Both the position numbers and the translations under genes were made by a program. The notes under the pieces are model-generated. The model made no database searches. It was not told where the DNA came from and saw only the letters and a list, made by a program, of their open reading frames with translations. This document shows, in pieces, positions 13,993 through 49,442 of a DNA stretch of 64,000 nucleotides; the stretch's first letter is position 1, and every line of letters starts with the position of its first letter. This stretch comes from a virus. Where the stretch lies: positions 1 through 64,000 of IMG/VR virus record IMGVR_UViG_3300034103_001892; one strand, given 5' to 3'.

Positions 13993-16900
13993 ACAATCGT
14001 CCAAAAAGCGCCACTATTTACCGTGATGGTTACCTCACTGTTAATAGTTATAGGACCGCTGCTTAAAGCGTTGAATGCGTTGCTGACATTACCTGATGCA
14101 CTTAAATTGGCACTGTTATATCCATATGCTAAAGTGTTTATGAACTGAGCCTTGACATTAGCTGGAGTAGTTCCGTTGCTGGTGTACACACTGAAATCTG
14201 TGGCGTTGTCATCGTTTAGTACAATATTGCCTAGAGTTATGGTGTTGCCGGAGATCCACAAATTGGTCCAGCGCAGAGTGCTTGAACCCAATGAGTAAAT
14301 ATTTGAGGCATCCGGTACCAAGTTACCTTTGAATGTGGTTAAACCTGGTGCGAATACCACTGCATTAGAATTTCCTGTAACAGACAATGCAATATTGCCA
14401 TTGGCAGCGGTCACTGACACATTTGAATTACCAGATCTAATGTTAGAACCGCTTACATTGCTCAGTGCAGAGCCATCGCCAGAGAAAAATGCGGCTGTGA
14501 TGTTGCCTGTTGCTGAAACATTTTTAGTGGTAGTTATGTTTCCAGTTGAATTAATGTCAGCAACGCTGAGCGACAAGAAAGGAAAACTAGTGTTGCCTAG
14601 TGTATAAACAAACGGATTATCAGGTATTAAATTAGCAGATATAATTGAGCTGGTACCGTATTCTAAAGGGCCTAAATCATAACTATTGGAAATAGTAGAA
14701 TCAGTGACCAATCCGTTATCAACATTTGGTGCATCTATTGAGTCACTGACCAATCCAGCACTGTTATTGCCAGCCCAGAAAATGCCATCATTTAGACTAT
14801 CCAAAACACTAATGGTAATAACACCGGTTGTGGCATTTCCAACCATGCCTATGCCATTGCCTGCTCTTGGAATCAGTGTACCACTGACATTGCCTGCGTT
14901 AATAGTTACATTACCAGCAGAATTGCCTGCAACATTGCCCTGTAAACTGATCACCGAATAAACAGATGAAGCGTTGGCTATGCCTGTAAGCTGCGATCCA
15001 TTGCCTATAAAGAAGTTGCCTGTAATGTTACCAGATGCGCTTACCACCCCAGTGACAAAAGCACCAGTGTTTGCCAAAACTAGAACATTGGCAGTTCCGC
15101 CTACATTGGCTGCAACATTGCCTCCGGAGGAGTCAATTCTTACATTGCTGTTGCCATTGTTGATATTGGCAACAGAAGTAATAATACCTGATAACTGACT
15201 ACCATTACCAAAGAAGAAGTTGCCAGTGATATTGCCTGATGCACTGATCTCACCACTGACGTATTCGCCTGTGCTGGCCAAGGTCCAAACATTGGCTGTG
15301 CCACCAACATTGGCTTGAATATTTCCGCCAGAAGTTTCAATTCTAATATTACTGGTACCGTTATTGATGTTGGCTACTGAAGTAATGATGCCAGACAGTT
15401 GACTACCATTACCAAAGAAGTAGTTGCCAGTTATATTTCCAGTTGCAGAGATAAATCCACCAGTGATTATGTTTCCACCTGTGACATTACCTGACACACT
15501 GGCACTGGCTCCTTGAAGTTGCCCAACTGCAATTATGTTGCCATTGGAGTCAACTCTACCTACCGCTGACCCACCCGCTTCATCAAGATTCTTAACAAAT
15601 CGTAAGGTGCCTGCTTCTACATCAATACCAAAGTTGTCGTTGTTGCCTTGATAGAAATGCAAACCAGGAGTATCACCGGCACCGTTGTTGAGTATGATGT
15701 TACCGCCACTGAGTGTTGCAGTATTATAAGGTGTGCCTCCAGTAAGGTTTAACACGCCAGAAGTTAATAAATTTCCACCAGTGACATTGGCTGTGGTTAC
15801 AATATTTCCAGCTGCGCTTACTCTACCATCAGAATTAACATTGCCGCCGGTGACGTTGCCCAGTGCAATCACTGCCCCATTTGAAGTAATGTTTGCACCA
15901 GTAACATTTCCTGCTGCGCTTATCAACAAACTTGACAGAATATTTCCACCACTGACATTGGCCACTGACACAACGTTGCCTGTTGCTGAAACTACGCCTG
16001 CGGTGTTGATGTTCCCACCAATTACATTGCCCTGTGCTGATACAGTGCCGTTACTGATCAAATTGGCTGCTGTAACATTGCCATCAACTGTGACAACACC
16101 ATTTGCAGTAATATTTCCAGATACGCTTAAGACGCCAATGTTTGTAACGTTGCTAATTGATAAATTATTTGCAGACGCATTTCCAGAGGTTTGAATTCCG
16201 CTTGCGTTTATTGTGAATATGTTTGCAGTACCTGCAACATTGGCCTGAATATTACCACCAGCGGTATCAATTCGTAAATTACTAGTGCCGTTATTGATGT
16301 TTGCAACTGAAGTAATAATACCAGAAAGCAATGATCCGTTGCCTAAAAAGTAGGTACCTGAGATATTACCTGAGGCTGAAATATTGCCGCCAGAAATGTT
16401 GCCTGTAATCGCAGCATTGCTAGTCACATTCAGCGTTGAACCAACATCAACATTGCCTGTAGCAGAAATTAAACCAGTGGCGTATAAACCAGTATTGGCA
16501 AACACCGCAGGAATCGTGCCATATGTTCCAACACTGACATTACCGTTGGCAGCAACTCTTACATTACTGTTGCCATTTTCAATTGCAGAACCAGCTGCTA
16601 TTGACACATTTGTAAGTTGACTTCCGTCGCCAATAAAATAACCAGCTGTGATATTACCAGTTGTTGATAAGTTATTGCCCAGCGTTATGTTGTTGCCAGA
16701 AATGTTTCCTGACACAGAAATGCCAACTGCGTTAAGATTACCGCCTTGCCCAGTGATTTGATTTATATTGATGTTGCCGCCATTGGCTGTGATTCCACCT
16801 ATGGTGTCAACTAAAATACTGTCTGCTGTTATACTGTTGGCAACATCAAGTATGCCAGTGATGCTTGCGTTCCCATTGACATTGAGATTGCTTAAAACAT

Positions 16901-19900
16901 TCCCTGTTAAACTAATATTACCCGTGTTTACATTACCTGCAATAACATTTGCTGATAAATTAGCACCAAGTGCGTTTAGATAACCACCTTGGCCTGTGAT
17001 TTGATTAATAACAATGTTACCACCATTGGCTGTAATACCGCCCGCGGTGTCAACCAAAATGCTGTCTGCTGTAAAGCTGTTAGCAACTCCAACTGTGCCG
17101 GCAATGTCTACATTCCCGTTAACATTGAGATCGCTTAAAACGTTGCCAGTTAGGCTAATGTTGCCGGTGTTTACATTTCCAGCAACAATATTTGCTGATA
17201 AATTAGCACCAACTGCGTTTAGATAACCACCTTGGCCTGTGATTTGGTTGATAGTGATGTTGCCTGAGTTAGCAGTGATGCCACCTACAGTGTCAACCAA
17301 CAAACTGTCAGCAGTTAGGCTGTTGGCAATATCTACTACGCCAGAAACATTAACATTACCATTTACTCTTAAATTACTTAGAACGTTGCCAGTTAAACTA
17401 ATATTAGTTGCATTAAGATTAGCACCAGAAATGTTTCCTTGGGCTGATACAGCACCGCCTGCTCCAGTTACTTCTGTCAAGATTAAATTACCACCAGTGA
17501 TATTCGCTCCAGCACTGGTGTTTACCAACAAGTAACCTGTGTTAACATTGGCAGCAACTATATTACCTGTAGATACATTTCCACTTATTACATTACCCGC
17601 AGCAGATATCAACCCATTGGTATTGATATTTGCTCCTGTAACATTACCTGATGCGCTGACACTATTGCCAGTTACAATGTTACCAGATACAGTACCAGTT
17701 GCAAAAACATTACTGGATAATATATTGCCACTTGCACTAATTGCACCAACAGTGTTAAAATTGCCTGCTGTGACATTGCCAGTTACAGACAAACTTGTAC
17801 CAGTGGCAGCACCAATATTTGGTGTTGTAAGATTAGCACCTGCCTTGACTGAAATATTGCCACCGCCGTCAAACGCTGTAGTGTTGTTGTCCACCTTGGC
17901 GGAAAATACAGTGCCTACAAGGCTGATACCAGCTTGTGTGTTGGCCGAGTAGACCTGGCTGGTGCTGAACAAGTCAAACACGATGTTGCTGGTGCCAAAC
18001 GTAATGGTACCTTGCGGCTCAGCAACCACGTAGGCCGAGCCTTTGTTCACATTGCCAGATTCAGTGAAGAAGTAGGAGTTCAGACTCAAGGCATGGGCAC
18101 TGTCGGTGCCGTATTCGTCAGCATCCGTGCTTCGCGTGATCGCTGTTGCGTTGCTCCAAGTATACACACCGTTGAGCACAGCATTGCCTTCGTTCTTGAC
18201 CAGGATCCTGGTACCAATGGTCTGCACGTTGGCCGTGTCAATGAGATTGAACGAACCAGTGGTGGTGATGGTGGCACCTATGCCGTTGCCAGCTCCGTTG
18301 GGCTGTGCGTAGGTGATGGTACCACCTGTGGTTGTGGCCAAGTTGGCCGTGGTAGATACAAATACCTGCTCGTGATAAGTAAGTCCCGTAGCCACCAAGT
18401 TATCAACATAGATCTTGGTAGCCGCATCTTGATTCTGCATAGGATCAAGAAGATTGTTGATGTAGTTGCTGTCAGCGTTGATGTTACCGGCTGCATTAAG
18501 AGTGATGTCACTGGATCCACCGCTGGCGATAGTGATGCCACCAGTGCTGGCTACTTTTGCTGTGTTTACATTACCACTATTGACATTGCCCGTGGCTGAC
18601 ACTATGCCTGTATTAACATTAACACCATTTAGGTTTCCTGGTGCAGTCAATGCGCCATCTTGGCCAAATATCCAGTTTTGCGATGTTCCTCCAGTATTGG
18701 CCCTAATGCTAACATCCGTATTAGCATATAACTCAGCAGTTACCGCCCCCATAAACAACGCGGTAGTATCATCAGCAGTAGTTGTTAGATATGCGGAGTT
18801 GGCTCCGTAAGTAGTAAAGTCTAGTTTAGAAAATCCTAATCCGCTAATTGGTCCTGGTACTGTTAAGTTGCCGTTCGTGCCAAAGGTCCAGGTGTTTCCA
18901 CCAGCTACAACACTTACGTTGCCACTGTTGTTCAGCGTAGGTGAATTTAAATTACCGCTTGTGATGTTGCCAGCAACACTTATGGTATTGCCATATGTGA
19001 TTTCTTTGCTGGTGGTATTGTAGAACATGACCTGGGCTGTGTTGGCCACATCATTTCTAACTGGAGCCACAGTGAATGTGTTAGCGGTGGTTTGATCCAA
19101 GTTGGCGCCGGTGGCATTCAATATGATTGAATTATTGCCTTGGTTTGTATAACCAGCACTTGCTCCAATGGCCACGGCATACTGACCTTGTGTGCCTGCT
19201 CCAGCACTGGCTCCAATAGCCACCGAATTGATGCGTTGATTGGCTGCCCCCGCACCGCCGCCAATGGCCACTGCGGCATTGCCTTGAACAGTTGATCCAG
19301 CACCTGCACCAATGGCCACTGATTCTTCACCCTGTGTTTGTTGACCAGCACCGCCGCCAATGGCCACTGAAAATTGACCCTGGTCTTCTTGGCCAGCAAA
19401 CAAACCAACGGCCACTGCCTGGGTGCCTTGTGAGTTATTGCCAGCAAGACCGCCAATGGCCACTGCATTGTCACCTTGTAAATTATAGCCAGCAAGGCCG
19501 CCAACAGCCACTGCACCAGAGCCTTGATTGGTTGATCCAGCACTTTGGCCAATGGCCACAGCTTCATCGCCTTGACTACCAGTAAAGGTCAATGTTCCAC
19601 TTGGGGTAAAACCAGCTGACGCCGATATTTCTAATGTTGTTGAGTTGGTCACGGTGACCACAGTTATGTTTCCGAAGAATCCAGTGCCGCTTATGATCAT
19701 GCCTGGTCCAATACCAGTGGTACTGGTAACTACCAGGGTGGTAGATGGAGATTCTGCACCCGAAACATAGTTGGTTGAGACGCTGCCACCGGCTCCGGCT
19801 GTGTTGCCAATGGCCACTGAGTTGTTGCCTTGTCTGTTGTTGCCGGCCAGCGATCCAATGGCCACTGCGGCATTGCCTTGACTAATTTGTCCAGCATTTA

Positions 19901-22900
19901 GGCCAAAGGCAATTGAGTTGCCCACAGTGCCTTTGATTTTAATATTGCCCAGGGGCAATGTCAATGCACCACTTGAGTCAAATCTCCATATATTACCATT
20001 GATATTACCGTATCTATCACCTGTCACTATGTTTACATTGCCTGCACCGTGACTGATACCGTTGTAGCCCACGCCTGTAGACAGATACAGATCTCCGCCT
20101 GGCACTGAACAGCCATCGGTATTGCCTGCACTGATGCGAAGATCAAAGCCTTTCTCACTGGCAAGGGTGGTTTGCGTTGAGATCCGTCCCGGAACACTAT
20201 TGGTTGCTGGAACAGTCAAGTTGCCAGTTGAGCCAAATGTCCAGGTATTGCCACTGGCCACAACACTTATGTTGCCACTGTTGTTCAGTGTGGCTGAAAT
20301 GAGATTACCGCCTGAAATGTTGGCAGTGGTTGTGATATTACCTGTGCCACCGATAGTATTGCTACCTAAATTGCTCAACAAAGTAGTTACATTACTATTT
20401 CCGTAAGAACTTACAATACCAGTAAGTTGTGAGCCATTACCAATAAAATAATTGCCTGTGACATTGCCAGTTGCACTAATCAATCCACCTGTCAACACAT
20501 TGCCAGCAGTGATGTTGCCCGTGGCTGATACTAAGCCGCTGGTAATTAGGTTGCCGCCGGTGACGTTGCCAGTGACAGTAGCAGCACCGGTGACCGCCAA
20601 AGTCCCAATATTGGCCGTGCCCGTGGTGGTTATGTTTCCGCCAGTGATGTTGCCGGTAGCAGAGATCAAGCCACCAGTAGTCAAATTGCCACCAGTGACA
20701 TTGCCAGTTGCGGTGATAAAGGAACTGGCGCTGATAGAACTTGACACTGCAATGCTACCAGCAACTGTGGCACTACCAGTCAATGCCAATGTTGCAATGT
20801 TGGCTGTGCCTGTGGTGGTTAAGTTGCCACCTGTGATGTTGCCAGTGGCATCAACTCTGCCGCCAGTGGTAATATTTCCGCCAATCACGTTACTGGTTGC
20901 TGATACTATTCCAGTTGAAAGTAAATTTCCACCAGATATATTAGCAGATGAAACAATGTTACCTGTAGCAGTCACACGACCACTAGTGGTTAAGTTACCA
21001 CCAACAACGTTGCCCACTGCAACCACTGATTCAGTGACGTTTAGATTTGCTGCATTGACGTTTGCGCTGGTTACAATGTTGCCAACTGCTGTGACCAAAC
21101 CTTGAGAAACTATGTTGCCTGCTGCTACATTTGAGGTAGACGTTATATTACCAACAGCAGTGATCAATCCGTTAGTGGTTATGTTGGCACCAGTTACGTT
21201 CCCAGATGCGTTTACTAAATTTGTTACAGATAAATTATTGCCTTGTAAATTACCAGTGGCTGAAATATTGCCTGTGGAACTTATTGTTCCAGTTGCATTT
21301 ATATTTCCGGCATTTACGTTTGCAGTGGTGTTTACGTTTCCAACGGCAGATATCAAACCAGATGAGTTTAAGGTAGACGCAGAAACATTTCCTGTTGCGC
21401 TGATGTTTTGTGCAGCGGTAATAGATCCGGTTGTGGTAATGTTTCCTGAATTGACATTTCCAACTGCGCTGATGTTGCCAGATGAATTTACATTGGCTGC
21501 GTTGACATTACCGGCAGAAATTACATTGCCTGTAGCTGTGATCACGCCAGCTGTGGCAATGTTTCCACCAACAATATTACCAGTGGCAGTTACTAGTCCA
21601 GCGGTGCTAATGTTTCCACCAACTACGTTGCCACTAGCAGTGAGCACACCGGCTGTGGTTATATTACCACCAATGACATTACCAGCCGCAGAAACTACCT
21701 GTGATGAATTTAGATTATTTGCATTTACATTACCACTTACACTTAGTTGACTGAGTGTGCCAACTGCGGTCAAACTTGATATCAATACATTTGAACTTAA
21801 AGTATCGCCAGTTACTAAACCAGCAGGCGCATTAATTGACGCGGTAGTTGCGTTTGTTATTTGGCCTCGTGGATCAACTGTTAACACTGGGATTGATGAA
21901 CTACTACCATAGGTGTTGGCTGTCACACCTGTGTTAGATATAAAAAATTGTGTTCCGTTTAAACTTAGACCAATGCCAGCAGTGTAACTACCAGCGCCGC
22001 TGAACTGTTGCCAAACAATGTTGGTTGTGCCAATTGTAACCGGCGAATTGGTTATACAAACATAACCAGTGTCGGCGTTGGTTGCTCCAGTTTCTATAAA
22101 TGTAAAGGCACTGGGTATTTCAGATGGCAAATCAAAATCTGTTGATCGTGTTAAAACAAACTGTGCTGTAGCGTTACCAGTGTTAGTAACAATGTAGATA
22201 CCGTTGTAGGGTTGGTTTAGCCCAACTTCGTTTTTGACCAAAACTCTTGCGTTTGCAGAAACAGCAGTGCTGTCAATTGACAGCAACCCATTGGTTGTGG
22301 CTGTGATTGTTGCACCTACACCATCAGTGCCATTGTTGTAGACATAGGTTGGCAATGTTGTGGCAGTTGCCAGCAACACTGACGCTTTTACATCTAAGCC
22401 TTGAGCTACACTGTCAACATAAAATTTTGTAGCAGCATCTTGCGCCTGCACAGGATTGGCCAACCAGTTAACCACTGCGTTGCTGAAAACCAAGTTCCCG
22501 CCAGGCGCAAAGGTAATGTTACCAGTTGAGTTAACAGTGTTTGCAGTTACTGAGCCAACCACTGATAGGTTACCAGTGGTGGTGTTTGCAGAAACAGCAA
22601 GACCAGCAGCAGCCACTGTGGTTGCTGAGATACCCACAGCATTTACATTAGCAGCCGAAGTGATATTGCCAGAAGTTGAAACAGTGCTGTTGCTGACAAT
22701 AGGACGGAAAAAGATTGTTTGAGCGGCGCCAACTTCAAGACTTTGAATATTATTGACTGTAAAGACAACATTGGCATTAGCGGATGGTATGTTTACCGTG
22801 GTACCACCAAACTGAATGTTTGGCGCTGCTGCGGCAAGTACACCACTTAAAAATCTACCATTACCAAAATAATAATCAACGTTTAAATTACCAGCAAGTT

Positions 22901-23210
22901 CCAGTCCACCGCTGCCAAGATATATGGTATTAAATCTTGCACTGGGGCTACCTAGGTCATACACATTGTCCACTGCCGGAACAATCGAACTTTTAACCTG
23001 TGTAATACCTATACCTGACGGTGCCAGCACCAAATTACCGTTTATATTGGTAGTGGTGATAGAATTATTAGCAATTCTGACGTTACTGTTGACCGGACCA
23101 TTTGACCAAATTTGATCAAAGTTTTCGTTGATTGCTATAAAAGCATTGCGTAACGGATCGCCGGTGCCATCATTGGGTGCTGCCCCAACATCAATGATAT
23201 TTTGTGACAT
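13989..23210 (-). CDS. Giant tail fibre protein, repeat-rich
   Basis: 3,073 residues, the largest gene in the window. The N-terminus MSQNIIDVGAAPNDGTGDPL...AFIAINENFDQIW is the usual start of marine T4-type fibres and probably joins the baseplate or a proximal fibre. Most of the chain is xSGN/xTGN repeats (GNISATGNVxGGNI), predicted to form a long trimeric beta-helical shaft. Distinct modules: a globular insert starting DAATKFYVDS (residues about 262-440) and a second copy starting DAATKIYVDN (about 1585-1775), twelve 16-residue YadA-head-like repeats (about 1093-1365), three 81-residue repeats (about 1917-2158), and 68-residue GNGSxLxGI repeats (about 2590-2742). Late promoter upstream. The stop overlaps the next adhesin gene by four bases. 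Confidence 0.8.
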   Translation of the reverse strand: MSQNIIDVGAAPNDGTGDPLRNAFIAINENFDQIWSNGPVNSNVRIANNSITTTNINGNLVLAPSGIGITQVKSSIVPAVDNVYDLGSPSARFNTIYLGSGGLELAGNLNVDYYFGNGRFLSGVLAAAAPNIQFGGTTVNIPSANANVVFTVNNIQSLEVGAAQTIFFRPIVSNSTVSTSGNITSAANVNAVGISATTVAAAGLAVSANTTTGNLSVVGSVTANTVNSTGNITFAPGGNLVFSNAVVNWLANPVQAQDAATKFYVDSVAQGLDVKASVLLATATTLPTYVYNNGTDGVGATITATTNGLLSIDSTAVSANARVLVKNEVGLNQPYNGIYIVTNTGNATAQFVLTRSTDFDLPSEIPSAFTFIETGATNADTGYVCITNSPVTIGTTNIVWQQFSGAGSYTAGIGLSLNGTQFFISNTGVTANTYGSSSSIPVLTVDPRGQITNATTASINAPAGLVTGDTLSSNVLISSLTAVGTLSQLSVSGNVNANNLNSSQVVSAAGNVIGGNITTAGVLTASGNVVGGNISTAGLVTATGNIVGGNIATAGVITATGNVISAGNVNAANVNSSGNISAVGNVNSGNITTTGSITAAQNISATGNVSASTLNSSGLISAVGNVNTTANVNAGNINATGTISSTGNISATGNLQGNNLSVTNLVNASGNVTGANITTNGLITAVGNITSTSNVAAGNIVSQGLVTAVGNIVTSANVNAANLNVTESVVAVGNVVGGNLTTSGRVTATGNIVSSANISGGNLLSTGIVSATSNVIGGNITTGGRVDATGNITGGNLTTTGTANIATLALTGSATVAGSIAVSSSISASSFITATGNVTGGNLTTGGLISATGNITGGNITTTGTANIGTLAVTGAATVTGNVTGGNLITSGLVSATGNITAGNVLTGGLISATGNVTGNYFIGNGSQLTGIVSSYGNSNVTTLLSNLGSNTIGGTGNITTTANISGGNLISATLNNSGNISVVASGNTWTFGSTGNLTVPATNSVPGRISTQTTLASEKGFDLRISAGNTDGCSVPGGDLYLSTGVGYNGISHGAGNVNIVTGDRYGNINGNIWRFDSSGALTLPLGNIKIKGTVGNSIAFGLNAGQISQGNAAVAIGSLAGNNRQGNNSVAIGNTAGAGGSVSTNYVSGAESPSTTLVVTSTTGIGPGMIISGTGFFGNITVVTVTNSTTLEISASAGFTPSGTLTFTGSQGDEAVAIGQSAGSTNQGSGAVAVGGLAGYNLQGDNAVAIGGLAGNNSQGTQAVAVGLFAGQEDQGQFSVAIGGGAGQQTQGEESVAIGAGAGSTVQGNAAVAIGGGAGAANQRINSVAIGASAGAGTQGQYAVAIGASAGYTNQGNNSIILNATGANLDQTTANTFTVAPVRNDVANTAQVMFYNTTSKEITYGNTISVAGNITSGNLNSPTLNNSGNVSVVAGGNTWTFGTNGNLTVPGPISGLGFSKLDFTTYGANSAYLTTTADDTTALFMGAVTAELYANTDVSIRANTGGTSQNWIFGQDGALTAPGNLNGVNVNTGIVSATGNVNSGNVNTAKVASTGGITIASGGSSDITLNAAGNINADSNYINNLLDPMQNQDAATKIYVDNLVATGLTYHEQVFVSTTANLATTTGGTITYAQPNGAGNGIGATITTTGSFNLIDTANVQTIGTRILVKNEGNAVLNGVYTWSNATAITRSTDADEYGTDSAHALSLNSYFFTESGNVNKGSAYVVAEPQGTITFGTSNIVFDLFSTSQVYSANTQAGISLVGTVFSAKVDNNTTAFDGGGNISVKAGANLTTPNIGAATGTSLSVTGNVTAGNFNTVGAISASGNILSSNVFATGTVSGNIVTGNSVSASGNVTGANINTNGLISAAGNVISGNVSTGNIVAANVNTGYLLVNTSAGANITGGNLILTEVTGAGGAVSAQGNISGANLNATNISLTGNVLSNLRVNGNVNVSGVVDIANSLTADSLLVDTVGGITANSGNITINQITGQGGYLNAVGANLSANIVAGNVNTGNISLTGNVLSDLNVNGNVDIAGTVGVANSFTADSILVDTAGGITANGGNIVINQITGQGGYLNALGANLSANVIAGNVNTGNISLTGNVLSNLNVNGNASITGILDVANSITADSILVDTIGGITANGGNININQITGQGGNLNAVGISVSGNISGNNITLGNNLSTTGNITAGYFIGDGSQLTNVSIAAGSAIENGNSNVRVAANGNVSVGTYGTIPAVFANTGLYATGLISATGNVDVGSTLNVTSNAAITGNISGGNISASGNISGTYFLGNGSLLSGIITSVANINNGTSNLRIDTAGGNIQANVAGTANIFTINASGIQTSGNASANNLSISNVTNIGVLSVSGNITANGVVTVDGNVTAANLISNGTVSAQGNVIGGNINTAGVVSATGNVVSVANVSGGNILSSLLISAAGNVTGANITSNGAVIALGNVTGGNVNSDGRVSAAGNIVTTANVTGGNLLTSGVLNLTGGTPYNTATLSGGNIILNNGAGDTPGLHFYQGNNDNFGIDVEAGTLRFVKNLDEAGGSAVGRVDSNGNIIAVGQLQGASASVSGNVTGGNIITGGFISATGNITGNYFFGNGSQLSGIITSVANINNGTSNIRIETSGGNIQANVGGTANVWTLASTGEYVSGEISASGNITGNFFFGNGSQLSGIITSVANINNGNSNVRIDSSGGNVAANVGGTANVLVLANTGAFVTGVVSASGNITGNFFIGNGSQLTGIANASSVYSVISLQGNVAGNSAGNVTINAGNVSGTLIPRAGNGIGMVGNATTGVITISVLDSLNDGIFWAGNNSAGLVSDSIDAPNVDNGLVTDSTISNSYDLGPLEYGTSSIISANLIPDNPFVYTLGNTSFPFLSLSVADINSTGNITTTKNVSATGNITAAFFSGDGSALSNVSGSNIRSGNSNVSVTAANGNIALSVTGNSNAVVFAPGLTTFKGNLVPDASNIYSLGSSTLRWTNLWISGNTITLGNIVLNDDNATDFSVYTSNGTTPANVKAQFINTLAYGYNSANLSASGNVSNAFNALSSGPITINSEVTITVNSGAFWTIV
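14985..15440 (-). repeat. 68-residue repeats in the giant fibre
   Basis: At least two full tandem units of about 204 bases, each reading FFGNGSQLSGIITSVANI, then NNGTSNIRI, GGNIxANVxGTANV, and SASGNITGN. A further diverged unit lies at about 16200-16350. Confidence 0.65.
16735..17460 (-). repeat. Three tandem 243-base repeats in the giant fibre
   Basis: Three 81-residue units, each with LxVNGN, DIANSxTADS, LVDTxGGITANxGNI, INQITGQGGxLNA and NTGNISLTGN. The DNA match ATAACCACCTTGGCCTGTG recurs exactly 243 bases apart (16981 and 17224), pointing to fairly recent duplication. Confidence 0.75.
17890..18510 (-). other. GC-richer module in the giant fibre
   Basis: Second copy of the DAATKxYVDN globular module. 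Lines counted by hand within it give about 52-55% G+C against about 33% in a neighbouring repeat line, and codon choice shifts with it. This looks like a recombined fibre module. Confidence 0.5.
19115..19930 (-). repeat. Twelve 48-base YadA-head-like repeats
   Basis: Encodes 16-residue units of the form xAVAIGxxAGxxxQGx, like the SVAIG left-handed beta-roll repeats of YadA-type trimeric adhesin heads. CCAATGGCCAC recurs about every 48 bases. One unit is interrupted by a roughly 75-residue insert (about 19580-19800). Confidence 0.75.
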
Positions 23211-23245: not shown

Positions 23246-25174
23246 TTATTGCACCGGACGGTATTGCTGATTAGTACGAGGGTATGTTGATCCTGAAGTT
23301 GGACGCAACCACATTTTTTGTGGGGGCCAAGCATTGCCAGTTATGGGTCTAGTTGGTACGTATCTTAGATAATTGTTGCCTGCCTCACGAAGTCCTCTAT
23401 AACTAACCGGTCCTGGCGGCAGTGGTATACTGTTGTCTGTAATTGCCCCAGTTTGTTGATAAGCAGCTAGATATTGTAATGCTTGGTTTTGTGTTAGATT
23501 TGGATAGTTTTCTGCCACAGTGGCGAAATATCCTGACACTTGTGGACTGGCCATACTGGTTCCACCAAGCTTGGCTAGGAAATAGGCTGGATTTCTAGGA
23601 TCTGCTACACCTGCTGCATTGTATGAGCTCATGATGTTAGACCCTGGCGCAAAAACATTTACAGCACTGCCTGCACTGCTGGTATCATCTAACTGTTCTA
23701 CTGGTAAAGACCCAATGTTACCAACCACCGCGATGCTTTCATAATTAGCAGCGCCAAATATTCCTCTATTTGCATGCGCTGGTGCTGGTAATCTATTGTG
23801 ATACTTTGGCGTATATAAAGCAAATGTGCCAATGGTTGCGAATATTAAATTCAAATAATTATTGTATCTATCGCTGTTGTTGACCATGCCGGCTTCATTG
23901 TATTGATTCCCAGCTGCTGCACACCATATGATTCCTTCTTTAGCCCCATCAAGTATTGCTGCTTCCGCTGCTGCATCTTGATTGGTATAGAAAAACAAAA
24001 TAACACCATATATGTCTATGTAATCTTTATACAATTGTACACCTGCATTGTACCATTGTTGTGGAATCCAATTTCCATTGTACGCAGCTTGCAACGAAGT
24101 TTGTCCTGCCGGTGCTGTTGCTGGATAATTCTGTGTGGTGTTTGTTGGATTATAAAACAGTTGATTACTCTGTATTGATCCATTGCTGGGATTTCTAGGA
24201 AAGGTATTGGCAATTAGTCCAAAACTCATGTTTACCACTGTGGGATTTTTCCTACCAGTTCGTGGATTCACTGTTTTTATATTATTATGCCAATAACGAA
24301 TATAGTTAACTAACTGAGTCAAACTTGGTGTGCTGGTGCCATTGGTTTGTTCGCTGTATGGACTAATGTTATAGATGTTGGCATTTTGTGCCCAACCGCA
24401 GGTATTGCCCGCCATGATTCCAGCAACGTGCATGCCATGCCCATTGTTGCCTGCTGAGCCTGCACTGTAGTTATATGTGCCTGCCGGTTGTCCTGTGACC
24501 TGCGGATTCAAACCCCACCAATTAAATTGCACAACTCTACTGCCACCGGTGCCATCAGGATTTACTGCATATTCTGGATGGTCAGGTAGAATGTTTCCAT
24601 CAAATACCACACAGTCAACATTAAGCCCAGATGCAGTGGTGGTTATACCCGCAGTTTGATTTGCTGTACCACCAGGCCATCCCCAATTTGAAATTTGTTG
24701 ACCGTTGGTGCAACGCAGTAATCCCCAATTTTTCATGTTGGCTGCATTGGTATCACTTTTATCCCAACCATCGGAAAACTCATATCCAAGCGGAACTGGC
24801 TTAACACCTGTTAAATGCGGAGCTAGCTCAACTGCCAACACTCTTGGATCGGTTTGAAGTTTTGTTGCTTCTTCTACACTGAGTTGATATTGAGTGCTTC
24901 TGCAAGTTGGCATTCTGTCAGAACATGCAACTATTCTTGTTGGAGCAAACCCACGGGATCCGTTGGACTCCATTTCATCGTAAAAATTTTCTTGATCTTC
25001 ATAGCTGTGCAGAGTAACCACGTAATCCAAAGCACCCAAGGACGAAGATTGCAATTCTGGCACTGGAAGATCTGTAAAATAAACATTTTGTTTTGTGTAT
25101 TCGTACAAAGCTTCCACGCTTGGATTTGGGCCAAGTTCTCTAAGTATTTTTTCTGCAATGTTACTGTAAATCAT
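23246..25174 (-). CDS. Subtilisin-like serine protease (S8) in the fibre locus
   Basis: 642 residues with a complete subtilase triad: D192 in VVFDGNILPDHPEY, H246 in GHGMHVAGIMAGN, S540 in GGTSMASPQVSG; an oxyanion Asn is likely in WCAAAGNQYN. The first 130 residues (LDYVVTLHSYEDQENFYDEM ... TDPRVLAVELAPHL) resemble an I9-type inhibitor propeptide, so the enzyme may mature by self-cleavage. There is no clear signal peptide or membrane segment, and the tail is Pro/Arg-rich. It sits between fibre genes in one minus-strand run, sharing TAATG with the upstream fibre gene, so I infer a virion- or fibre-associated protease. It could process fibres, act on host surface proteins, or be an independent enzyme carried with the locus. 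Confidence 0.85.
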   Translation of the reverse strand: MIYSNIAEKILRELGPNPSVEALYEYTKQNVYFTDLPVPELQSSSLGALDYVVTLHSYEDQENFYDEMESNGSRGFAPTRIVACSDRMPTCRSTQYQLSVEEATKLQTDPRVLAVELAPHLTGVKPVPLGYEFSDGWDKSDTNAANMKNWGLLRCTNGQQISNWGWPGGTANQTAGITTTASGLNVDCVVFDGNILPDHPEYAVNPDGTGGSRVVQFNWWGLNPQVTGQPAGTYNYSAGSAGNNGHGMHVAGIMAGNTCGWAQNANIYNISPYSEQTNGTSTPSLTQLVNYIRYWHNNIKTVNPRTGRKNPTVVNMSFGLIANTFPRNPSNGSIQSNQLFYNPTNTTQNYPATAPAGQTSLQAAYNGNWIPQQWYNAGVQLYKDYIDIYGVILFFYTNQDAAAEAAILDGAKEGIIWCAAAGNQYNEAGMVNNSDRYNNYLNLIFATIGTFALYTPKYHNRLPAPAHANRGIFGAANYESIAVVGNIGSLPVEQLDDTSSAGSAVNVFAPGSNIMSSYNAAGVADPRNPAYFLAKLGGTSMASPQVSGYFATVAENYPNLTQNQALQYLAAYQQTGAITDNSIPLPPGPVSYRGLREAGNNYLRYVPTRPITGNAWPPQKMWLRPTSGSTYPRTNQQYRPVQ

Positions 25175-29131: not shown

Positions 29132-30280
29132 ATGGATACACATCAATTAGTGGTACAAGGAAATCAACATCGTGATCAAGATTATTATCACGAAGCTTTG
29201 CGTTGTTATGCTGAATCTTTTTTATTAGATCATACAAACAAACATGCCTGGAACAATTATGGTAACGTGCTTCGTGAAATAGGTGAACCCACAAGAGCCG
29301 TACCTTTTTTGGAACATGCCACAGCAATTGATCCAGATTTTGTCACAGCGCATTTTAATCTAGCCATAACTCATCTGCTGGCCGGCAACTACAAACAAGG
29401 TTGGGAAAAATATGAATGGCGCTGGAGATACGAGCATCTTGACGGCACGTTGCCTAATCTGTCTAAACCCAGATGGACAGGCCAGGATCTCAAGGATAAA
29501 ACCATATTGGTTTTACAAGAACAGGGATTTGGCGACATTATCATGATGAGTAGGTTTTTGCACGACCTGTATCTTAGAGGATGCAAAATAAAACTACAGG
29601 TGTTACCAGGACTGGTGAGGTTGTACAAACCCAGTTTTGTATTAGACACTGTGTCAGATAGCCTTGATGACATGGGAGACTATGATTATTGGACACCAAT
29701 AATGAGTTTACCTGGTGTGCTTGGAGTAACTTTAGAAAACATGCGCCATGATCTACAGTATCTTGATCCAATGAAACCCGAGTTTGATCGTTGGTTAGAC
29801 ATACTTGGTCCAAAAAAACACATGCGTATTGGGCTTTGTTGGAGTGGTAGAAGAGACAGTTGGCTCAACAGATACAAATCCATGCCTGTGGAAACCATGC
29901 TGAATCTAGTGCGCCAAAATCCCAATCATGAATACTTTTGTTTACAACTTGACGCCAGCGACGATGAACTCAACTCTGTACGAAGTCAAGGTGTTAAGAT
30001 TCCACACAATCATATTCAAGATTGGTTAAACACCGCAGGCTTAATGTGTCACTTGGATCTTGTGATCAGTGTTGACACTGCTGTTGCACACATGGCTGGT
30101 TCTCTAGGCAAACCACTTTGGGTGCCCTTGAACAAGTTTGCTCAAGATTGGAGATGGTTATTGCATCGCAACGACAGTCCTTGGTACCCCAGTGCTAGAC
30201 TGTTCAGGCAACCAAGCCATGGAAATTGGCAAGAAGTAATTCAAGAAATGTCAAAATTCTTAACATATTTTAAAATTTGA
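29132..30280 (+). CDS. TPR-glycosyltransferase (GT9/GT41-like)
   Basis: 382 residues. Residues 1-100 are tetratricopeptide repeats (EALRCYAESFLLDHTNKHAW, NYGNVLREIGEPTRAVPFLE, FNLAITHLLAGNYKQGWEKY). The C-terminal part has the glycosyltransferase pattern found behind TPRs: EQGFGDIIMMSRFL near residue 130, IGLCWSGRRDSWLNRYKSM near 235, and the donor-site region SVDTAVAHMAGSLGKP with WRWLLHRNDSPWYPSARLF. Such enzymes transfer a sugar from a nucleotide-sugar to protein or glycan. The target could be a virion protein, phage DNA via hydroxymethylated bases, or host surface glycan; nothing here decides. Late-type promoter abuts the ATG. The DnaE-like polymerase follows 47 bases later. Confidence 0.75.
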   Translation: MDTHQLVVQGNQHRDQDYYHEALRCYAESFLLDHTNKHAWNNYGNVLREIGEPTRAVPFLEHATAIDPDFVTAHFNLAITHLLAGNYKQGWEKYEWRWRYEHLDGTLPNLSKPRWTGQDLKDKTILVLQEQGFGDIIMMSRFLHDLYLRGCKIKLQVLPGLVRLYKPSFVLDTVSDSLDDMGDYDYWTPIMSLPGVLGVTLENMRHDLQYLDPMKPEFDRWLDILGPKKHMRIGLCWSGRRDSWLNRYKSMPVETMLNLVRQNPNHEYFCLQLDASDDELNSVRSQGVKIPHNHIQDWLNTAGLMCHLDLVISVDTAVAHMAGSLGKPLWVPLNKFAQDWRWLLHRNDSPWYPSARLFRQPSHGNWQEVIQEMSKFLTYFKI

Positions 30281-30296
30281 GCAAATCATAGTTTGG

Positions 30297-30302
30297 TAAA
30301 TA
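30297..30302 (+). promoter_or_regulatory. Late-type core TAAATA ahead of the DnaE-like polymerase
   Basis: GGTAAATATC, 25 bases before the ATG at 30328, with a weak AGG ribosome site. A polymerase would be expected to be early, so this element may be incidental or add late expression. Confidence 0.35.
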
Positions 30303-30327
30303 TCTTCCCAAATACTTTTATAGGCAC

Positions 30328-32001
30328 ATGAACAGCAGATTTGATGAACTAGAAATCCTAATATCAAAGTTTACCAGGCAACTACCAGAAGACACAAAAT
30401 ACGCACACAGACTAGAAGAAGAACTTGAACTAATAGCTAAACTAAACTTTGCCAAGCACTTTTTACGTGTTAGAGAAATACTGGATCTAACAAGAGACAT
30501 ACCACACATCACACGTGGCTCAGCAGGGTCAAGCTTGATATGTTGGATGATGGGCATCAGTGATGTTGATCCCATTGTTGAAAACATACCGCTGAGCCGA
30601 TTCATGAACCCCCGTCGGGATGATCTTCCTGACATTGATCTTGACTTTCCCCATTGGCAGCAACAAGAAGTAATGAACAGGATTTTTCGTAAATGGCCTG
30701 GACAAAGTGCAAGGGTCAGCAACTATGTTACCTATAAAGAAAAATCAGCTCGCAGAGAAGCAGCCAAGAGATTAGGAGCCAAAGGAAAGTTAAAACGTAA
30801 CTTTGATTTTTCAGACGTCGTGCCTGACTATGTTGAAGATGCTGAAAGGTTAACCAACAAACTACTGGGCAAGAAACGTTGTATCAGCAAACACTGCGGT
30901 GGCATATTGATATTTGATCGTGCGGTGCCCAAAAGCTTGATCAATGGCGAAAATCAAATCTTGTTAGACAAGTACGAAATCGAAGACCTAGAACATTTCA
31001 AGATTGATGTTTTGGCCAATCGCGGATTGAGTCAACTATGGGAAATAGAACAACGAGATTTGCTTGATTATCCTGAACAAGACGAAGCAACTGCTGAGCT
31101 TTTACGTCAAGGCAATGTACTGGGCGTAACACAGGCAGAATCTCCTGCAATGCGTCGTTTGTTTAGAGCAATACAACCTCGTAGTCGTGCCGATTGTGTG
31201 TTGGCTACTGCACTGGTTAGGCCAGTGGCCACTCAAGGACGCAGACGTGCCAGTTTTTTTCAAGACTGGAGCAAAGATGGTTTTCAGGATACCATAGTGT
31301 TTGAAGATGACGCCATTGAACTGATTGGCGAGATACTAGGCTGCGACCAATACGAAGCTGACATGTGGCGTCGAGCTTTTGCTAAAAAGAACGAAGAAAA
31401 AATGTTTGAGTTCATGCAAAAGATAGGCACTCATCCTAGAAAGGATGATGTATTGTTGGCACTGCGAGAACTCAGTCATTTTGGTTTGTGTAGAGCTCAT
31501 GCAATTAACCTAGGTAGACTGATCTGGGCATTGGCATATCAAAAGGCACACAATCCTGTAAACTTTTGGAAGGCTGCGCTAAAACACTGCCAAGGCAGTT
31601 ATGCTCGTTGGGTATATTGGCAGGAAGCCAAATTAGCAGGTGCTGTGCCTGCATTGATTGAAGGCAACGAAGTTGAGGACCTGGCTGTCAATGGCAAATG
31701 GCACTCTCCAAAGTTTATACCAGTTTGTCAAGAAATAAGACATCCTGGCGAAATAGAATTCTGTGGTCTAGTAGCCAATTATCGTGTGTTTAAATCAAAA
31801 CCCAAAGAGTACATAACCTTTGTTACCTTGGGCACTGGCAATGGACGCTACCTTGATGTGGTTGTTCCTCATGCATTGAGTTTACACGAACATCCAATTC
31901 TCTGGGGAAAAGGCAAACTTGGTTACAAAAACAACACAGAATATGTTACAGTAAACAAAGTTCGTAAATTAAAACTCAGTGAGATTGCTGCTGTAAAATG
32001 A
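30328..32001 (+). CDS. Compact C-family (DnaE-like) DNA polymerase lacking the PHP domain
   Basis: 557 residues collinear with the palm-to-OB part of bacterial polymerase III alpha. Visible: RGSAGSSLICWMMGISDVDP at 63-82 (E. coli GRGSGAGSLV...ITDLDP), PDIDLDF at 101-107 giving catalytic D102 and D104, HCGGILIF at 189-196, third catalytic Asp D227 in FKIDVLANRGL (E. coli FDFLGLRTL), GVTQAESPAMRRL at about 266-278 (GVFQLES), ATALVRPV (ALFRPG), SHFGLCRAHAINLG (GYGFNKSHA), and a C-terminal OB-fold from EFCGLVANYRVF. The usual N-terminal PHP domain (about 270 residues in E. coli) is absent: the frame starts just before the palm and the preceding gene is unrelated. T4-like phages normally use B-family gp43. 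It could replicate the genome, act as an auxiliary polymerase, or pair with a separate N-terminal subunit elsewhere. Confidence 0.85.
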   Translation: MNSRFDELEILISKFTRQLPEDTKYAHRLEEELELIAKLNFAKHFLRVREILDLTRDIPHITRGSAGSSLICWMMGISDVDPIVENIPLSRFMNPRRDDLPDIDLDFPHWQQQEVMNRIFRKWPGQSARVSNYVTYKEKSARREAAKRLGAKGKLKRNFDFSDVVPDYVEDAERLTNKLLGKKRCISKHCGGILIFDRAVPKSLINGENQILLDKYEIEDLEHFKIDVLANRGLSQLWEIEQRDLLDYPEQDEATAELLRQGNVLGVTQAESPAMRRLFRAIQPRSRADCVLATALVRPVATQGRRRASFFQDWSKDGFQDTIVFEDDAIELIGEILGCDQYEADMWRRAFAKKNEEKMFEFMQKIGTHPRKDDVLLALRELSHFGLCRAHAINLGRLIWALAYQKAHNPVNFWKAALKHCQGSYARWVYWQEAKLAGAVPALIEGNEVEDLAVNGKWHSPKFIPVCQEIRHPGEIEFCGLVANYRVFKSKPKEYITFVTLGTGNGRYLDVVVPHALSLHEHPILWGKGKLGYKNNTEYVTVNKVRKLKLSEIAAVK

Positions 32002-32312
32002 AAGTATATTCAAGACTACACTTATACCCGCACAACAAACCAAATGGTCACGCCTATATAGTAGGTGATCCACTTGCGTTACGACGACTAGGTGATCTAC
32101 TGAAAACAGCATCCACTAGCATGGTAGGGATTGAGATCGCTGGTTTTTTTGGCAGCGACGGTCATGAATACGAACTAAGAATTGTTTCTCAAGTTGATGA
32201 CATTGAGTGGCAACAACTACAGTTACCTGGTGTTGATCTGTGTGGTACCGGCAATCTAAACACTGTGAAAACTTTTAATGAACTGCTAGACAAAAACAAA
32301 AGGGCCGCTTAG
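31998..32312 (+). CDS. Small protein coupled to the DnaE-like polymerase, function unknown
   Basis: 104 residues, not recognised. The start overlaps the polymerase stop in ATGA, so the two are probably translated together. The sequence has an N-terminal beta/aromatic segment (YSRLHLYPHNKPNGHAYIVG), a central amphipathic helix (ALRRLGDLLKTAS) and a mixed alpha/beta remainder (GHEYELRIVSQVDDIEW). Coupling suggests a partner or accessory factor of the polymerase, but this is inference only. A bidirectional terminator overlaps its last codons. Confidence 0.6.
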   Translation: MKVYSRLHLYPHNKPNGHAYIVGDPLALRRLGDLLKTASTSMVGIEIAGFFGSDGHEYELRIVSQVDDIEWQQLQLPGVDLCGTGNLNTVKTFNELLDKNKRAA

Positions 32313-32320
32313 GCCCTTTT
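32298..32320. terminator. Bidirectional terminator between polymerase unit and major capsid gene
   Basis: AAAAGGGCC-GCTTA-GGCCCTTTT, a 9-bp stem with A/T runs at both ends. It serves the plus-strand polymerase unit ending at 32312 and the minus-strand capsid unit ending at 32345. Confidence 0.85.
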
Positions 32321-32344: not shown

Positions 32345-33541
32345 TTAGCTGAAGCTAAGGTTCGAAACAGCGATCTCACCCAGATAGTCAGCTGCGTTAC
32401 CAAAGCTGCTGGCTGTGTTAGTAAGTTCGATGTAGCCGTAACGTGTCATGAACGATACGACTGGTTCGAATGTGCTTGGATCCAGAACAACACCAGAACT
32501 CATTAATGGGATATATGGGCAGTAGAACGCGGCTGCATCAGCCTCGCTTGAACCCTTATAACCAACTAGAACTGGAGTGCTGTCGCTAGCATAGCTATCA
32601 ACAAACACACGCATTGAACCGTTTAGAGTACCAACAAACTTGGTGTTTGTAGGTGCTTCAAAGGTACCTTCAGTTGTACGTGCAAATGCTGAAGTTGTTG
32701 CTGATTGCAGAACAGTCAATGATGCTGAACTTACAACTGCCCAGTTACCAGCGCCACGACGTGTACGCTGAGCGATCAGGTTAGCAACACGGTTGATCAG
32801 AACAGCTAAAGCAGCGTGTTCGTCACCAACGAATGTAGCAGTACCAGATACAGTAGCTTGGTTGTATGTAAACTCAGTTGCTGCAAGAGTACGCAGGCTC
32901 AGCAGGATCTCTTGATCAATTTCAGCAGTGATTTCTTGAGCCAGTGCGGCCATGATTTCTGCTTCAACGTCAATACCGTGCATTGCTTGTGCATCTTGTG
33001 CAGCTTCAAATGTCCAACGAGCTTGTAACTTACGTGTCTTGGCTTCAACAGCTTGCTTCAAGATCTGTACGGAAATATTCTTACCGCCGTTGCCTTCAAG
33101 AGTTGCTGTAGGAGCACCAGTATAGTTACTAGCTGTTGCTGCATTTGATGCAACTGTTGAGTAAGCAGTAGCAATTTTGAATGGGCTAAGTGCTTCTTCG
33201 CCAGCTACAACAGAAGTTGCTGCTGCGCTGTTGTCAGTTAGGTTACTTGCGTAACGAACACGCAGAGTATGAATCTGACCAACTGGACCAGTCATAGGCT
33301 GAACACCTACGAGCTCGTTAGCGATAACTGTTGGCATCACACGACGAATAACTGGTAGAATCACACGGTTTAATGTAGCGATGTTACCAGCTGCTGTGGA
33401 ACCAGCTGTTGCATTTTCTTTCAAATACTTTCGAGTGTTTTCTAAAATAACACCCATAGTGTTGCGACGATTACCTTTAAGGCCTTCCATTAAAGCGTCT
33501 TTGGTTTCGCCCCAACGACTTTCAAGTAGTTCTTGTGACAT
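32345..33541 (-). CDS. 23: Major capsid protein, gp23-like
   Basis: 398 residues with the gp23 landmarks VILPVIRRVMPTVIANELVG, VQPMTGPVGQIHTLRVRY, EAKTRKLQARWTFEAAQDAQ and the C-terminal FYCPYIPLMSSGVVLDPSTF...RYGY. It builds the HK97-fold head lattice. The N-terminal 50 or so residues (ESRWGETKDALMEGL... to about KENAT) correspond to the delta segment removed by the gp21 protease in T4. Length is shorter than T4 gp23 (521) but normal for marine relatives. Ribosome site AAGGAG. Downstream is a bidirectional terminator; upstream are gp22 and gp21, the T4 order read on the minus strand. Confidence 0.9.
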   Translation of the reverse strand: MSQELLESRWGETKDALMEGLKGNRRNTMGVILENTRKYLKENATAGSTAAGNIATLNRVILPVIRRVMPTVIANELVGVQPMTGPVGQIHTLRVRYASNLTDNSAAATSVVAGEEALSPFKIATAYSTVASNAATASNYTGAPTATLEGNGGKNISVQILKQAVEAKTRKLQARWTFEAAQDAQAMHGIDVEAEIMAALAQEITAEIDQEILLSLRTLAATEFTYNQATVSGTATFVGDEHAALAVLINRVANLIAQRTRRGAGNWAVVSSASLTVLQSATTSAFARTTEGTFEAPTNTKFVGTLNGSMRVFVDSYASDSTPVLVGYKGSSEADAAAFYCPYIPLMSSGVVLDPSTFEPVVSFMTRYGYIELTNTASSFGNAADYLGEIAVSNLSFS

Positions 33542-47259: not shown

Positions 47260-47816
47260 ATAACTATTTCACCAACGCAAGTATTGTCTGGCGAATCTAA
47301 AATCAAATCCACATAATCGCATATGTTTTCTAAATCAAGCCCGTTACCAGTCCAATTACTTCGACTCTGACTCAAGGGGGTATCTAATCTATCAATAGTA
47401 AGCAGTGTGGTTTTAAATGCTACAATACCGGTTTTAAAACTTTCTGTCCACTGCAAGCTATGTGCTTTTAAACTGGCTTTTGACACTCTATAGGTTTCAA
47501 ATTCAGGATCAACTGCAACAGTGCGTTCAGTGCCCACTGACCCAATGTTGATGATATGTCCACGTTTGCCTAGTTCTTTCCAGGCCTTTGCTACTGAAAA
47601 CAAAAGTTTTGTTTGAGCAAAATTTGCCCAGGATTCATGAAAAGGTCCATCAAATGCATTGTTTACAAAGACATCATATTTTTCACTGAGTTCAACAATT
47701 TGTTTCACATTCTTGGTAATATCAAATCCTACTTCGCGACTAATACTAACTCCGTTGAAGCGATTACAAATAGCCTCACCAAGACCTCGATTGCCACCTG
47801 TTACCAGCATTTTCAT
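47244..47816 (-). CDS. Short-chain dehydrogenase/reductase
   Basis: About 190 residues from ATG 47816 (MKMLVTGGNRGLGEAI), chosen for the ATGA overlap with the radical-SAM gene and GGAGCTC upstream. SDR features: TGGNRGLG cofactor loop, VNNAFDG (NNAG-like), INIGSVG with the catalytic Ser, and YRVSKASL with Tyr and Lys four apart (YxxxK). The fold is a bit shorter than usual (about 250). It would oxidise or reduce a carbonyl/alcohol using NAD(P)H, or act as an epimerase-like enzyme. Placed between a methyltransferase and a SPASM-type radical-SAM enzyme; likely part of one pathway. Confidence 0.8.
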   Translation of the reverse strand: MKMLVTGGNRGLGEAICNRFNGVSISREVGFDITKNVKQIVELSEKYDVFVNNAFDGPFHESWANFAQTKLLFSVAKAWKELGKRGHIINIGSVGTERTVAVDPEFETYRVSKASLKAHSLQWTESFKTGIVAFKTTLLTIDRLDTPLSQSRSNWTGNGLDLENICDYVDLILDSPDNTCVGEIVMWCKL

Positions 47817-48937
47817 TCTTGAGCTCCTTGATCCCATACTTTAGTAAATTTGTCACCACAAGTCATAGCACATTCAAACAGGCGTCCTTGATCAAGAGAC
47901 TTGTTCCAGCTGTCTACTAAGTCTTGCCACATTGGCACTGCAAATATATTTTCTAAACTATGATTGTGTATATTCAATTTTTGTAGTCCATAATGCTGTA
48001 AAAATTTTCTAATATGATTGTTTTTACCGATACCGCTGAGTTCGTTGGCTTCAGGCAACTGCCCGGGTTCGTTGAATCTAGCATCATATAAATTATGATT
48101 AAAAAAGTTACAGGGCAACACCAATCCTTCGCAATTGATTGCAACTTTACCACCTTGTAATGCGTCACAGGTAATTGTAGTACTATCAAAGTAATCACGC
48201 CAGCTTGTGTATTCAGCTTGTAGTTTTGGTAAACGCTTGATACTGCGATTTTGATATTCAGCCAATGATGTAGGTCGCAAATATCTTATGGTTTTACCAT
48301 TGCGATTTTGCACAGGCCACTGGTCTATTGCTGTCATTGTTTTATGATTAAAAAACCTTCCAGTGCTACGAAATTGTACGTTACAAAATCCCATTTCAAA
48401 AGACAGTTCACGTATCTTTTCTAACTCTTCTTGATTGTGTTCAAACACAATACAATTCCATTGTGCGCGACCGCCTGCGTTTATAAAAGCTTCTGCATTT
48501 TTTAAAACAGTTTTGAATTTTACATTTTGTCTGTACACATGATTGGTTGATGATAATCCGTCAATACCAAAATCAACTTTTCCTAGCCCATTTATGATAC
48601 GAGCCATGCGTGTCCAATAAGCAGATCCGTGAACTCCGCCATTGGTATGAATATACAACCAAACGTTGGGATTTTTAGCGCGAAAGTCTTCTAATATGTC
48701 TAAAAATTCTGGATGCATGATAGGATCGCCGTAGCTACCACAGAAGAAAATCTGTTTGCACTTTGACACTATGTCTTTGGTAAAAGCTTTGGATATCACT
48801 GCACGATCTAGATGTTTCAACGGCATGTGAGGATTGACACCAGCGCCGTTGATATTTCTTGGACACTGCGGGCAAGCAGCGTTACAATAACTGGTTATTT
48901 CTAGTTGGTATTCAGTTATGCTATCAAGATTAAACAT
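47813..48937 (-). CDS. Radical-SAM enzyme with SPASM-like C-terminus
   Basis: 374 residues. The CxxxCxxC cluster for the SAM-binding 4Fe-4S is C18, C22, C25 (SYCNAACPQC), then FCGSYGDPIMHPEF as the GGEP-like motif and YIHTNGGVHG. A C-terminal group of cysteines (ITCDALQ, INCEGLVLPCNFFNH, FECAMTCG) resembles the SPASM/twitch auxiliary cluster region of enzymes that modify peptides or sugars. Radical-SAM enzymes of this type act in RiPP maturation, protein modification, or aminocyclitol and heme-type pathways. No obvious precursor peptide is nearby. Overlaps the downstream SDR (ATGA) and the upstream gene by eight bases. Confidence 0.8.
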   Translation of the reverse strand: MFNLDSITEYQLEITSYCNAACPQCPRNINGAGVNPHMPLKHLDRAVISKAFTKDIVSKCKQIFFCGSYGDPIMHPEFLDILEDFRAKNPNVWLYIHTNGGVHGSAYWTRMARIINGLGKVDFGIDGLSSTNHVYRQNVKFKTVLKNAEAFINAGGRAQWNCIVFEHNQEELEKIRELSFEMGFCNVQFRSTGRFFNHKTMTAIDQWPVQNRNGKTIRYLRPTSLAEYQNRSIKRLPKLQAEYTSWRDYFDSTTITCDALQGGKVAINCEGLVLPCNFFNHNLYDARFNEPGQLPEANELSGIGKNNHIRKFLQHYGLQKLNIHNHSLENIFAVPMWQDLVDSWNKSLDQGRLFECAMTCGDKFTKVWDQGAQE

Positions 48938-49442
48938 CAGGTAAATCTCTAAAAAAATCTTTGGCTTCTTTTAATATTTCTTGATTGGATTTGAAAATTG
49001 TACGTTCTAATTGTGGACCAGATTTTCTGCGTTGTATCAACCAGTCAGTGGTTGGAACCACAAAGTTCAAACTCCAGGTTCCGTTGTAGCCAAGATATAG
49101 ATTTGGTTTGATGCAGGAAGGACCTGAGTCATGAGCCCAGTACACAGGATAAAACTTTCCATCCCATAGTTCAGATCTAAGTTGGATGTTATCAAACGCA
49201 ATCTCTTGTATCAACACATGTTTGTCTATAGCAATGTTTCCGACTTCATCATAGGCATGATCAGTTACTTGTTTGCCATAGTGACAAATTTTCAAGGTAT
49301 GAGGTCCAGGACTAACCAAAAAATCAAAACTATGATTGTCCTGTGCCGCACCCTCGTACAGGGTTTGATAATCGTCAATGGAAATTTTTAGTTGAGGGTC
49401 GCCTAATCTACGTTCAACAAATAGTTTTACGTCAAGTTTCAA
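48930..49442 (-). CDS. Unknown beta-rich protein between two radical-SAM genes
   Basis: 170 residues, not firmly recognised. The pattern of short beta strands, KLFVERRLGDPQLKISIDDY with SPGPHTLKICHYGK, suggests an immunoglobulin-like or carbohydrate-binding sandwich (the PGxHxLxI turn is common in such modules). A second part has VYWAHDSGPSCIKPNLYLG and WSLNFVVPTTDWLIQRRK. It overlaps the two radical-SAM genes (eight bases downstream, four upstream), so it is expressed together with them. It could be the substrate-binding partner or the substrate itself. Function unknown. Confidence 0.4.
   Translation of the reverse strand: MKLDVKLFVERRLGDPQLKISIDDYQTLYEGAAQDNHSFDFLVSPGPHTLKICHYGKQVTDHAYDEVGNIAIDKHVLIQEIAFDNIQLRSELWDGKFYPVYWAHDSGPSCIKPNLYLGYNGTWSLNFVVPTTDWLIQRRKSGPQLERTIFKSNQEILKEAKDFFRDLPDV

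Follow-up and report, generated by a model that had tools for sequence, protein, structure and literature searches.

We found that one open reading frame (positions 30328-32001, + strand) of a 64,000-nucleotide stretch of viral DNA, here called the window, encodes a C-family (DnaE) DNA polymerase core that lacks a PHP domain, which we refer to as mini-DnaE. An earlier note on this DNA had proposed a compact polymerase of this kind, and the proposal is borne out by Pfam, by residue mapping onto E. coli DnaE, by the position of the RGS motif, and by Foldseek. The phage is T4-like, as had also been surmised, given the presence of gp23, gp20, gp21, and late-sigma homologues. Our preferred reading, which we consider probable, is that mini-DnaE is a catalytically complete, minimal C-family polymerase that acts as an accessory beside a gp43-type replicase, that a small protein encoded immediately downstream is its accessory subunit, and that the two genes form a relocating unit.

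Identity, catalytic residues, and fold of mini-DnaE

The reading frame is uninterrupted and comprises 557 codons. The Pfam family DNA_pol3_alpha matches residues 21-230 (E 2.6e-39), up to the end of the profile, the DnaE finger-domain family is matched with an E value of 5e-16, and the nearest PDB entries by sequence are the DnaEs of Mycobacterium, Thermus aquaticus, and E. coli. Based on the alignment with E. coli DnaE, residues D102 and D104 (motif PDIDLDF; codons at 30631-30639, +) and D227 (motif FKIDVL; codon at 31006-31008, +), which had been named as the palm aspartates of Pol III alpha, correspond to D401, D403, and D555. The three palm carboxylates lie in PDxD and KxD motifs, as is typical of the C-family. 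Further equivalent residues are R63-G64-S65 (R362-G363-S364 in E. coli), K225 (K553), and R348/R349 (R709/R710). An ORF on the minus strand (30318-30722) was taken to be a shadow of the conserved mini-DnaE gene.

The chain consists of a palm (residues 1-135 and 187-240), a reduced thumb (~136-186), fingers (~241-420), and an OB-fold (~467-548). Structure prediction had been suggested as a check, and the AlphaFold2 model (pLDDT 82.8, pTM 0.82) matches only DnaE and PolC in the PDB at E ≤ 0.001 (19 of 19 Foldseek matches), with OB folds next in order; both the Pol-beta-like palm and the DnaE fingers are present in the model. The C-terminal OB-fold that had been claimed is seen as a beta barrel at residues 468-548. 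It is encoded almost directly 3′ of the fingers (31726-31971, +) and aligns, at a low score, with residues 991-1075 of the E. coli protein. An OB-fold located C-terminal to the fingers is a trait of DnaE and not of PolC.

Domains missing from mini-DnaE

The N-terminal PHP domain, which is standard in the architectures of bacterial DnaE and PolC, is absent. The RGS motif lies at residue 62 of mini-DnaE, whereas the DnaEs of phages and bacteria that do have PHP carry it at residue 295 or later. The gene upstream encodes a TPR protein, not a PHP domain, and the search for a free PHP domain that the earlier note had called for gave none in 18 related records of up to 484 kb (E ≤ 0.1). In E. coli Pol III alpha, the PHP domain is generally considered necessary for the stability of the enzyme, and for this reason the activity of the PHP-less mini-DnaE is stated here as a prediction.

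Also absent is the clamp-binding region by which DnaE1 replicases are recognized: residues ~790-990 of E. coli DnaE (the clamp-binding/HhH region, ~200 residues) are cut to ~46 amino acids in the alignment. The C-terminal tau-binding domain is likewise missing. A Pfam search for a T4 gp45 clamp returned a single weak, sub-threshold match, and divergent clamps are easily missed by Pfam. No DnaQ-type exonuclease was found in the related records G000-G006, and LR756508.1 gave one RNase_T match. The earlier note had placed a DexA-type exonuclease near the polymerase; the window does contain an exonuclease gene (3284-3802), but it lies 26.5 kb away and carries an Rv2179c-like DEDD domain (PF16473).

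Conservation and selection

There are 436 mini-DnaE relatives in the viral contigs scanned, and from each scan we retained the 80 best. More than 100 viral relatives agree in length and start, the complete ones being near-identical in both (~555 amino acids in a single chain), and the palm aspartates are invariant across 44 aligned relatives. With a median dN/dS of 0.048 and a maximum of 0.071, mini-DnaE is under very strong purifying selection; the gene for its partner, described below, evolves faster (median 0.10). The closest match among annotated phage records is in the 484-kb LR756508.1, which is 36.6% identical over 98% of mini-DnaE. A bacterial origin was rejected, as bacterial genomes yielded only ordinary DnaEs that are at most 29% identical.

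A coupled partner gene

The stop codon of mini-DnaE overlaps, in the sequence ATGA, the start codon of a 104-amino-acid ORF (31998-32312, +) with the conserved motifs RLHxYPH, SDGHxYEL, and EEEWQ. This partner, which the earlier note had overlooked along with the mobility of the pair and a published precedent (Iyer 2021, PMC7824862), adjoins mini-DnaE, at a median distance of -3 bp, in 69 of the 74 non-redundant loci and is its sole constant neighbor, the next commonest being present in 18. Its start lies inside the last mini-DnaE codons in most relatives, and the overlap is four bases in 51. It is missing beside mini-DnaE in the deeper relatives L075-L078 (58%) and LR756508.1. Judging from the coupling and co-retention of the two genes, the partner is probably an accessory subunit of mini-DnaE, with which it would form a complex.

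The model of the partner is a small alpha/beta protein (pLDDT 87.8) with no fold match in the PDB. Weak similarity to Imm32 was seen in 6 of 24 partners; since the best score shown (23.5 bits) falls below the curated Pfam cut-off of 27 and no PDB fold matches, we did not assign the partner to Imm32.

Endonuclease III-like glycosylase genes lie between mini-DnaE and the partner in three loci (L019, L038, and L064; confirmed by Pfam in L019 and L038), which probably represent two independent insertion events. In two other loci, the intervening gene is glutamine-amidotransferase-like (L011:11662-12306, Pfam BPL_N; L045:9863-10510), and a cluster homologous to it is found near the cassette in 13 loci.

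Coexistence with a gp43-type polymerase

The earlier note had raised the possibility that a mini-DnaE substitutes for gp43. Relatives whose mini-DnaE is 84% identical contradict this, since an intact gp43-type PolB is encoded there as well. The record to which the window belongs is a fragment of 65 kb, and PolB does not lie within it. However, the gene order of the window is collinear over 50 kb with the 337-kb record G001 (mini-DnaE 84% and gp23 88% identical), and the search for gp43 that had been proposed found a B-family PolB of this type in G001, G002 (320 kb), G006, and LR756508.1. The G001 PolB is intact, with exonuclease and palm motifs (DNA_pol_B, E 2.7e-38; exonuclease domain, E 9e-19). 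All three of the longest mini-DnaE records (320, 337, and 484 kb) encode PolB, and in a relative of 303 kb PolB occurs without mini-DnaE. In this family of giant water-borne phages, mini-DnaE is thus additional to the T4-type phage polymerase, and its most likely part is that of a second polymerase that helps in DNA repair, not that of the main copying enzyme.

Y-family polymerase/ImuB (PF00817), the mutasome partner of DnaE2/ImuC, had no match in eight records. An A-family polymerase was not found in G000-G006, and LR756508.1 gave one sub-threshold PolA-like match. The PolB of LR756508.1 (L083 and L084, ~260.6-267 kb) is spread over two ORFs that are apparently broken up by a pair of intein-like insertions, the YGDTDS region being the site of one. 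Just 3′ of mini-DnaE in the same phage is an elongation factor G-like gene of 681 amino acids (L082:14232-16277), as judged from its sequence.

Borders and genomic positions of the cassette

In the window, the pair is flanked on the left by a TPR-repeat gene (29132-30280, +), which adjoins gp23 in relatives without the cassette, and on the right by the gene for the gp23-type major capsid protein (32345-33541, -), whose 3′ flank is an insertion hotspot. A promoter-like motif resembling TATAAATA, with two mismatches, is located at 30295-30302 (+). The motif occurs with no more than one mismatch upstream of 54 of 71 mini-DnaEs, compared with 23% in shuffled sequences and 19% for other ORFs. A T4 late promoter was considered, but in G001 the motif is found ahead of PolB as well, and it shows no clear concentration in the virion block; we therefore do not claim that the cassette is expressed late. 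The cassette is closed by a terminator-like hairpin, read from the sequence as AAAAGGGCC-GCTTA-GGCCCTTTT (32298-32320, +), which overlaps the stop codon of the partner.

Relative to the gene order of G001, the pair is found at ~10 or more positions. At the gp23 site of 80 relatives (gp23 80-92% identical), an HNH endonuclease-like gene is present in 22, the TPR gene is directly adjacent in seven, and the cassette is present in none, many of these flanks being short or holding other sequence. The HNH endonuclease-like gene at the gp23 3′ flank is located at 292938-293720 in G001, and also occurs in flanks among L186-L265. Mini-DnaE is encoded in one of 12 long gp23-bearing records. As the records are fragments that may be incomplete, such absences point to a patchy distribution but do not prove it. 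No conserved terminal sequence was noticed at the ends of the cassette. Genes for gp32, UvsX, or PolB lie within a few kb of it in 8-10 loci each.

Elsewhere in the window, a 3073-amino-acid ORF lies in the tail-fiber region (13989-23210, -) and is in part similar to a 1785-amino-acid protein of G001; a subtilisin-family protease gene lies in the tail region (23246-25174, -); and a pair of radical-SAM-like genes separated by a small gene (47813-50941, -) is located amid SbcCD and sigma-factor genes.

Proposed role and alternative explanations

The most likely role of mini-DnaE is that of a predicted non-proofreading accessory polymerase for gap-filling and repair, or for translesion synthesis. 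The palm, thumb, and fingers would hold the primer-template, whilst the OB-fold would bind the single-stranded template, and the enzyme, which would not proofread, would close short gaps or continue synthesis beyond damaged sites. The partner would be a stabilizer, or an adaptor to the phage replication and repair machinery, and the two genes would constitute a transcription unit that relocates within jumbo phages and is gained or lost by them. We favor repair and gap-filling on the grounds that mini-DnaE has no proofreading or clamp-binding domain, coexists with a high-fidelity PolB, has endonuclease III genes inserted beside it in three loci, and is found in the neighborhood of gp32, UvsX, or PolB in 8-10 loci each.

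Of the two branches of the earlier interpretation, that of a special repair or primer role is the one that stands and is favored; the replacement of gp43 by mini-DnaE is contradicted by the relatives. We give hardly any credence to a main replicase working with a separate proofreader: the intact catalytic residues, the exonuclease gene at 3284-3802, and the lack of PolB in the window's fragment would suit such an enzyme, yet PolB is encoded in each of the three longest records, the 303-kb relative manages with PolB and no mini-DnaE, and the clamp-binding region has been deleted. Primer extension, in which mini-DnaE would resemble Bacillus DnaE3 beside PolC by extending RNA primers over a short distance and then handing over to gp43, draws support from the coexisting high-fidelity replicase, the lack of a proofreading domain, the retained OB-fold, and the proximity of gp32 and UvsX to the cassette in some relatives. 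We nevertheless think it unlikely, given that patchiness among close relatives and repeated relocation are a poor fit to a function required each time an Okazaki fragment is made, and that no linkage to primase or helicase was seen.

Two further explanations concern the pair as a genetic element. It could be a largely selfish cassette, spread by gene conversion of the homing-endonuclease type at hotspots such as gp23, with the polymerase mainly serving its own transfer; the hotspot shared with the HNH gene, the many sites, the cassette's own terminator-like hairpin, and a promoter-like motif that travels with it all fit. With no nuclease inside, no conserved terminal sequence noticed, and very strong purifying selection on mini-DnaE, however, we judge this improbable. 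That the pair acts in counter-defense or superinfection, with the polymerase as the harmful component and the partner as its immunity-like protein, is more doubtful still. The weak similarity that 6 of 24 partners show to Imm32 and the faster evolution of the partner point that way, but the Imm32 scores shown are below the cut-off, the partner has no PDB match, and deeper relatives carry the polymerase without it.

Bacterial C-family polymerases are described as a PHP domain plus a core, and the mini-DnaE lineage is an abundant natural minimal version in which the purpose of PHP, and whether a small subunit takes its place, can be tested. It also shows that a jumbo phage can combine more than one DNA polymerase system and that one such system can be moved around as a cassette, a point of relevance to the assembly and exchange of replisomes.

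Comparison with known C-family polymerases

The only direct precedent that our literature search returned is that of Iyer 2021 (PMC7824862), in which gp23-type jumbo phages of group 2.2 were described as encoding PolB plus a minimal Pol III alpha that lacks PHP and is divided between two distant genes. Like mini-DnaE, the split enzyme is a C-family polymerase that is phage-specific, has no PHP domain, and occurs alongside a gp43-type PolB in jumbo phages of the gp23 type, although for mini-DnaE the PolB was seen in the records of relatives and not in the window's 65-kb fragment. The split enzyme consists of two proteins (~170-190 and 190-210 amino acids) with no OB-fold seen, whereas mini-DnaE is one 557-amino-acid chain that includes a thumb, fingers, and an OB-fold and has a coupled partner. 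We located both split units in four phages (Atu_ph07, 121Q, RAS14, and Slicko01); the N-unit was also present in further ones. G002 has matches to both units, and G001 encodes an N-unit (117041-117598) and a C-unit (17469-18053); together with its PolB and mini-DnaE, three polymerase systems are thus present in one record. In a maximum-likelihood tree, the phylogenetic check that had been suggested, single-chain mini-DnaEs (100/100) and split pairs (100/100) form separate clades, with long branches that make their exact placement unsure. In view of these separate clades, long branches aside, we rejected the idea that mini-DnaE is a fusion of the split pair.

Mini-DnaE shares the palm-thumb-fingers core and the OB-fold C-terminal to the fingers with bacterial DnaE1, DnaE2, and DnaE3, and it resembles DnaE2 and DnaE3 in being, by prediction, a non-proofreading accessory enzyme. 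It differs from all three in having no PHP, clamp-binding, or C-terminal domain, and is no more than 29% identical to the bacterial DnaEs found. Full-length phage DnaEs (those of PB1-like, Streptomyces Stanwilliamsviridae, and Rhizobium N1_10 phages) are also C-family enzymes, 23-29% identical to mini-DnaE, but are 967-1172 amino acids long, with a complete N-terminal (PHP) region ahead of the palm. A long region of this kind was present in every other phage DnaE examined except gp66 of Gordonia phage Beyoncage (811 amino acids), whose palm-bearing chain starts just ahead of the palm, as in mini-DnaE. Two genes upstream of gp66, however, Beyoncage has a second DnaE-like gene, gp64 (318 amino acids), which is presumed to supply the PHP part, whereas no PHP gene was found in the mini-DnaE phages. 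What is new is a single-chain, PHP-less lineage distinct from the split pair, its translationally coupled partner of ~100 amino acids, and the occurrence of the pair at many genome sites. We tentatively suggest, as a possibility that falls short of being probable, that it represents a third C-family polymerase type, in which a single chain without PHP functions by way of a dedicated ~100-amino-acid subunit and moves as a mobile repair-polymerase cassette, in some phages as one of three polymerase systems.
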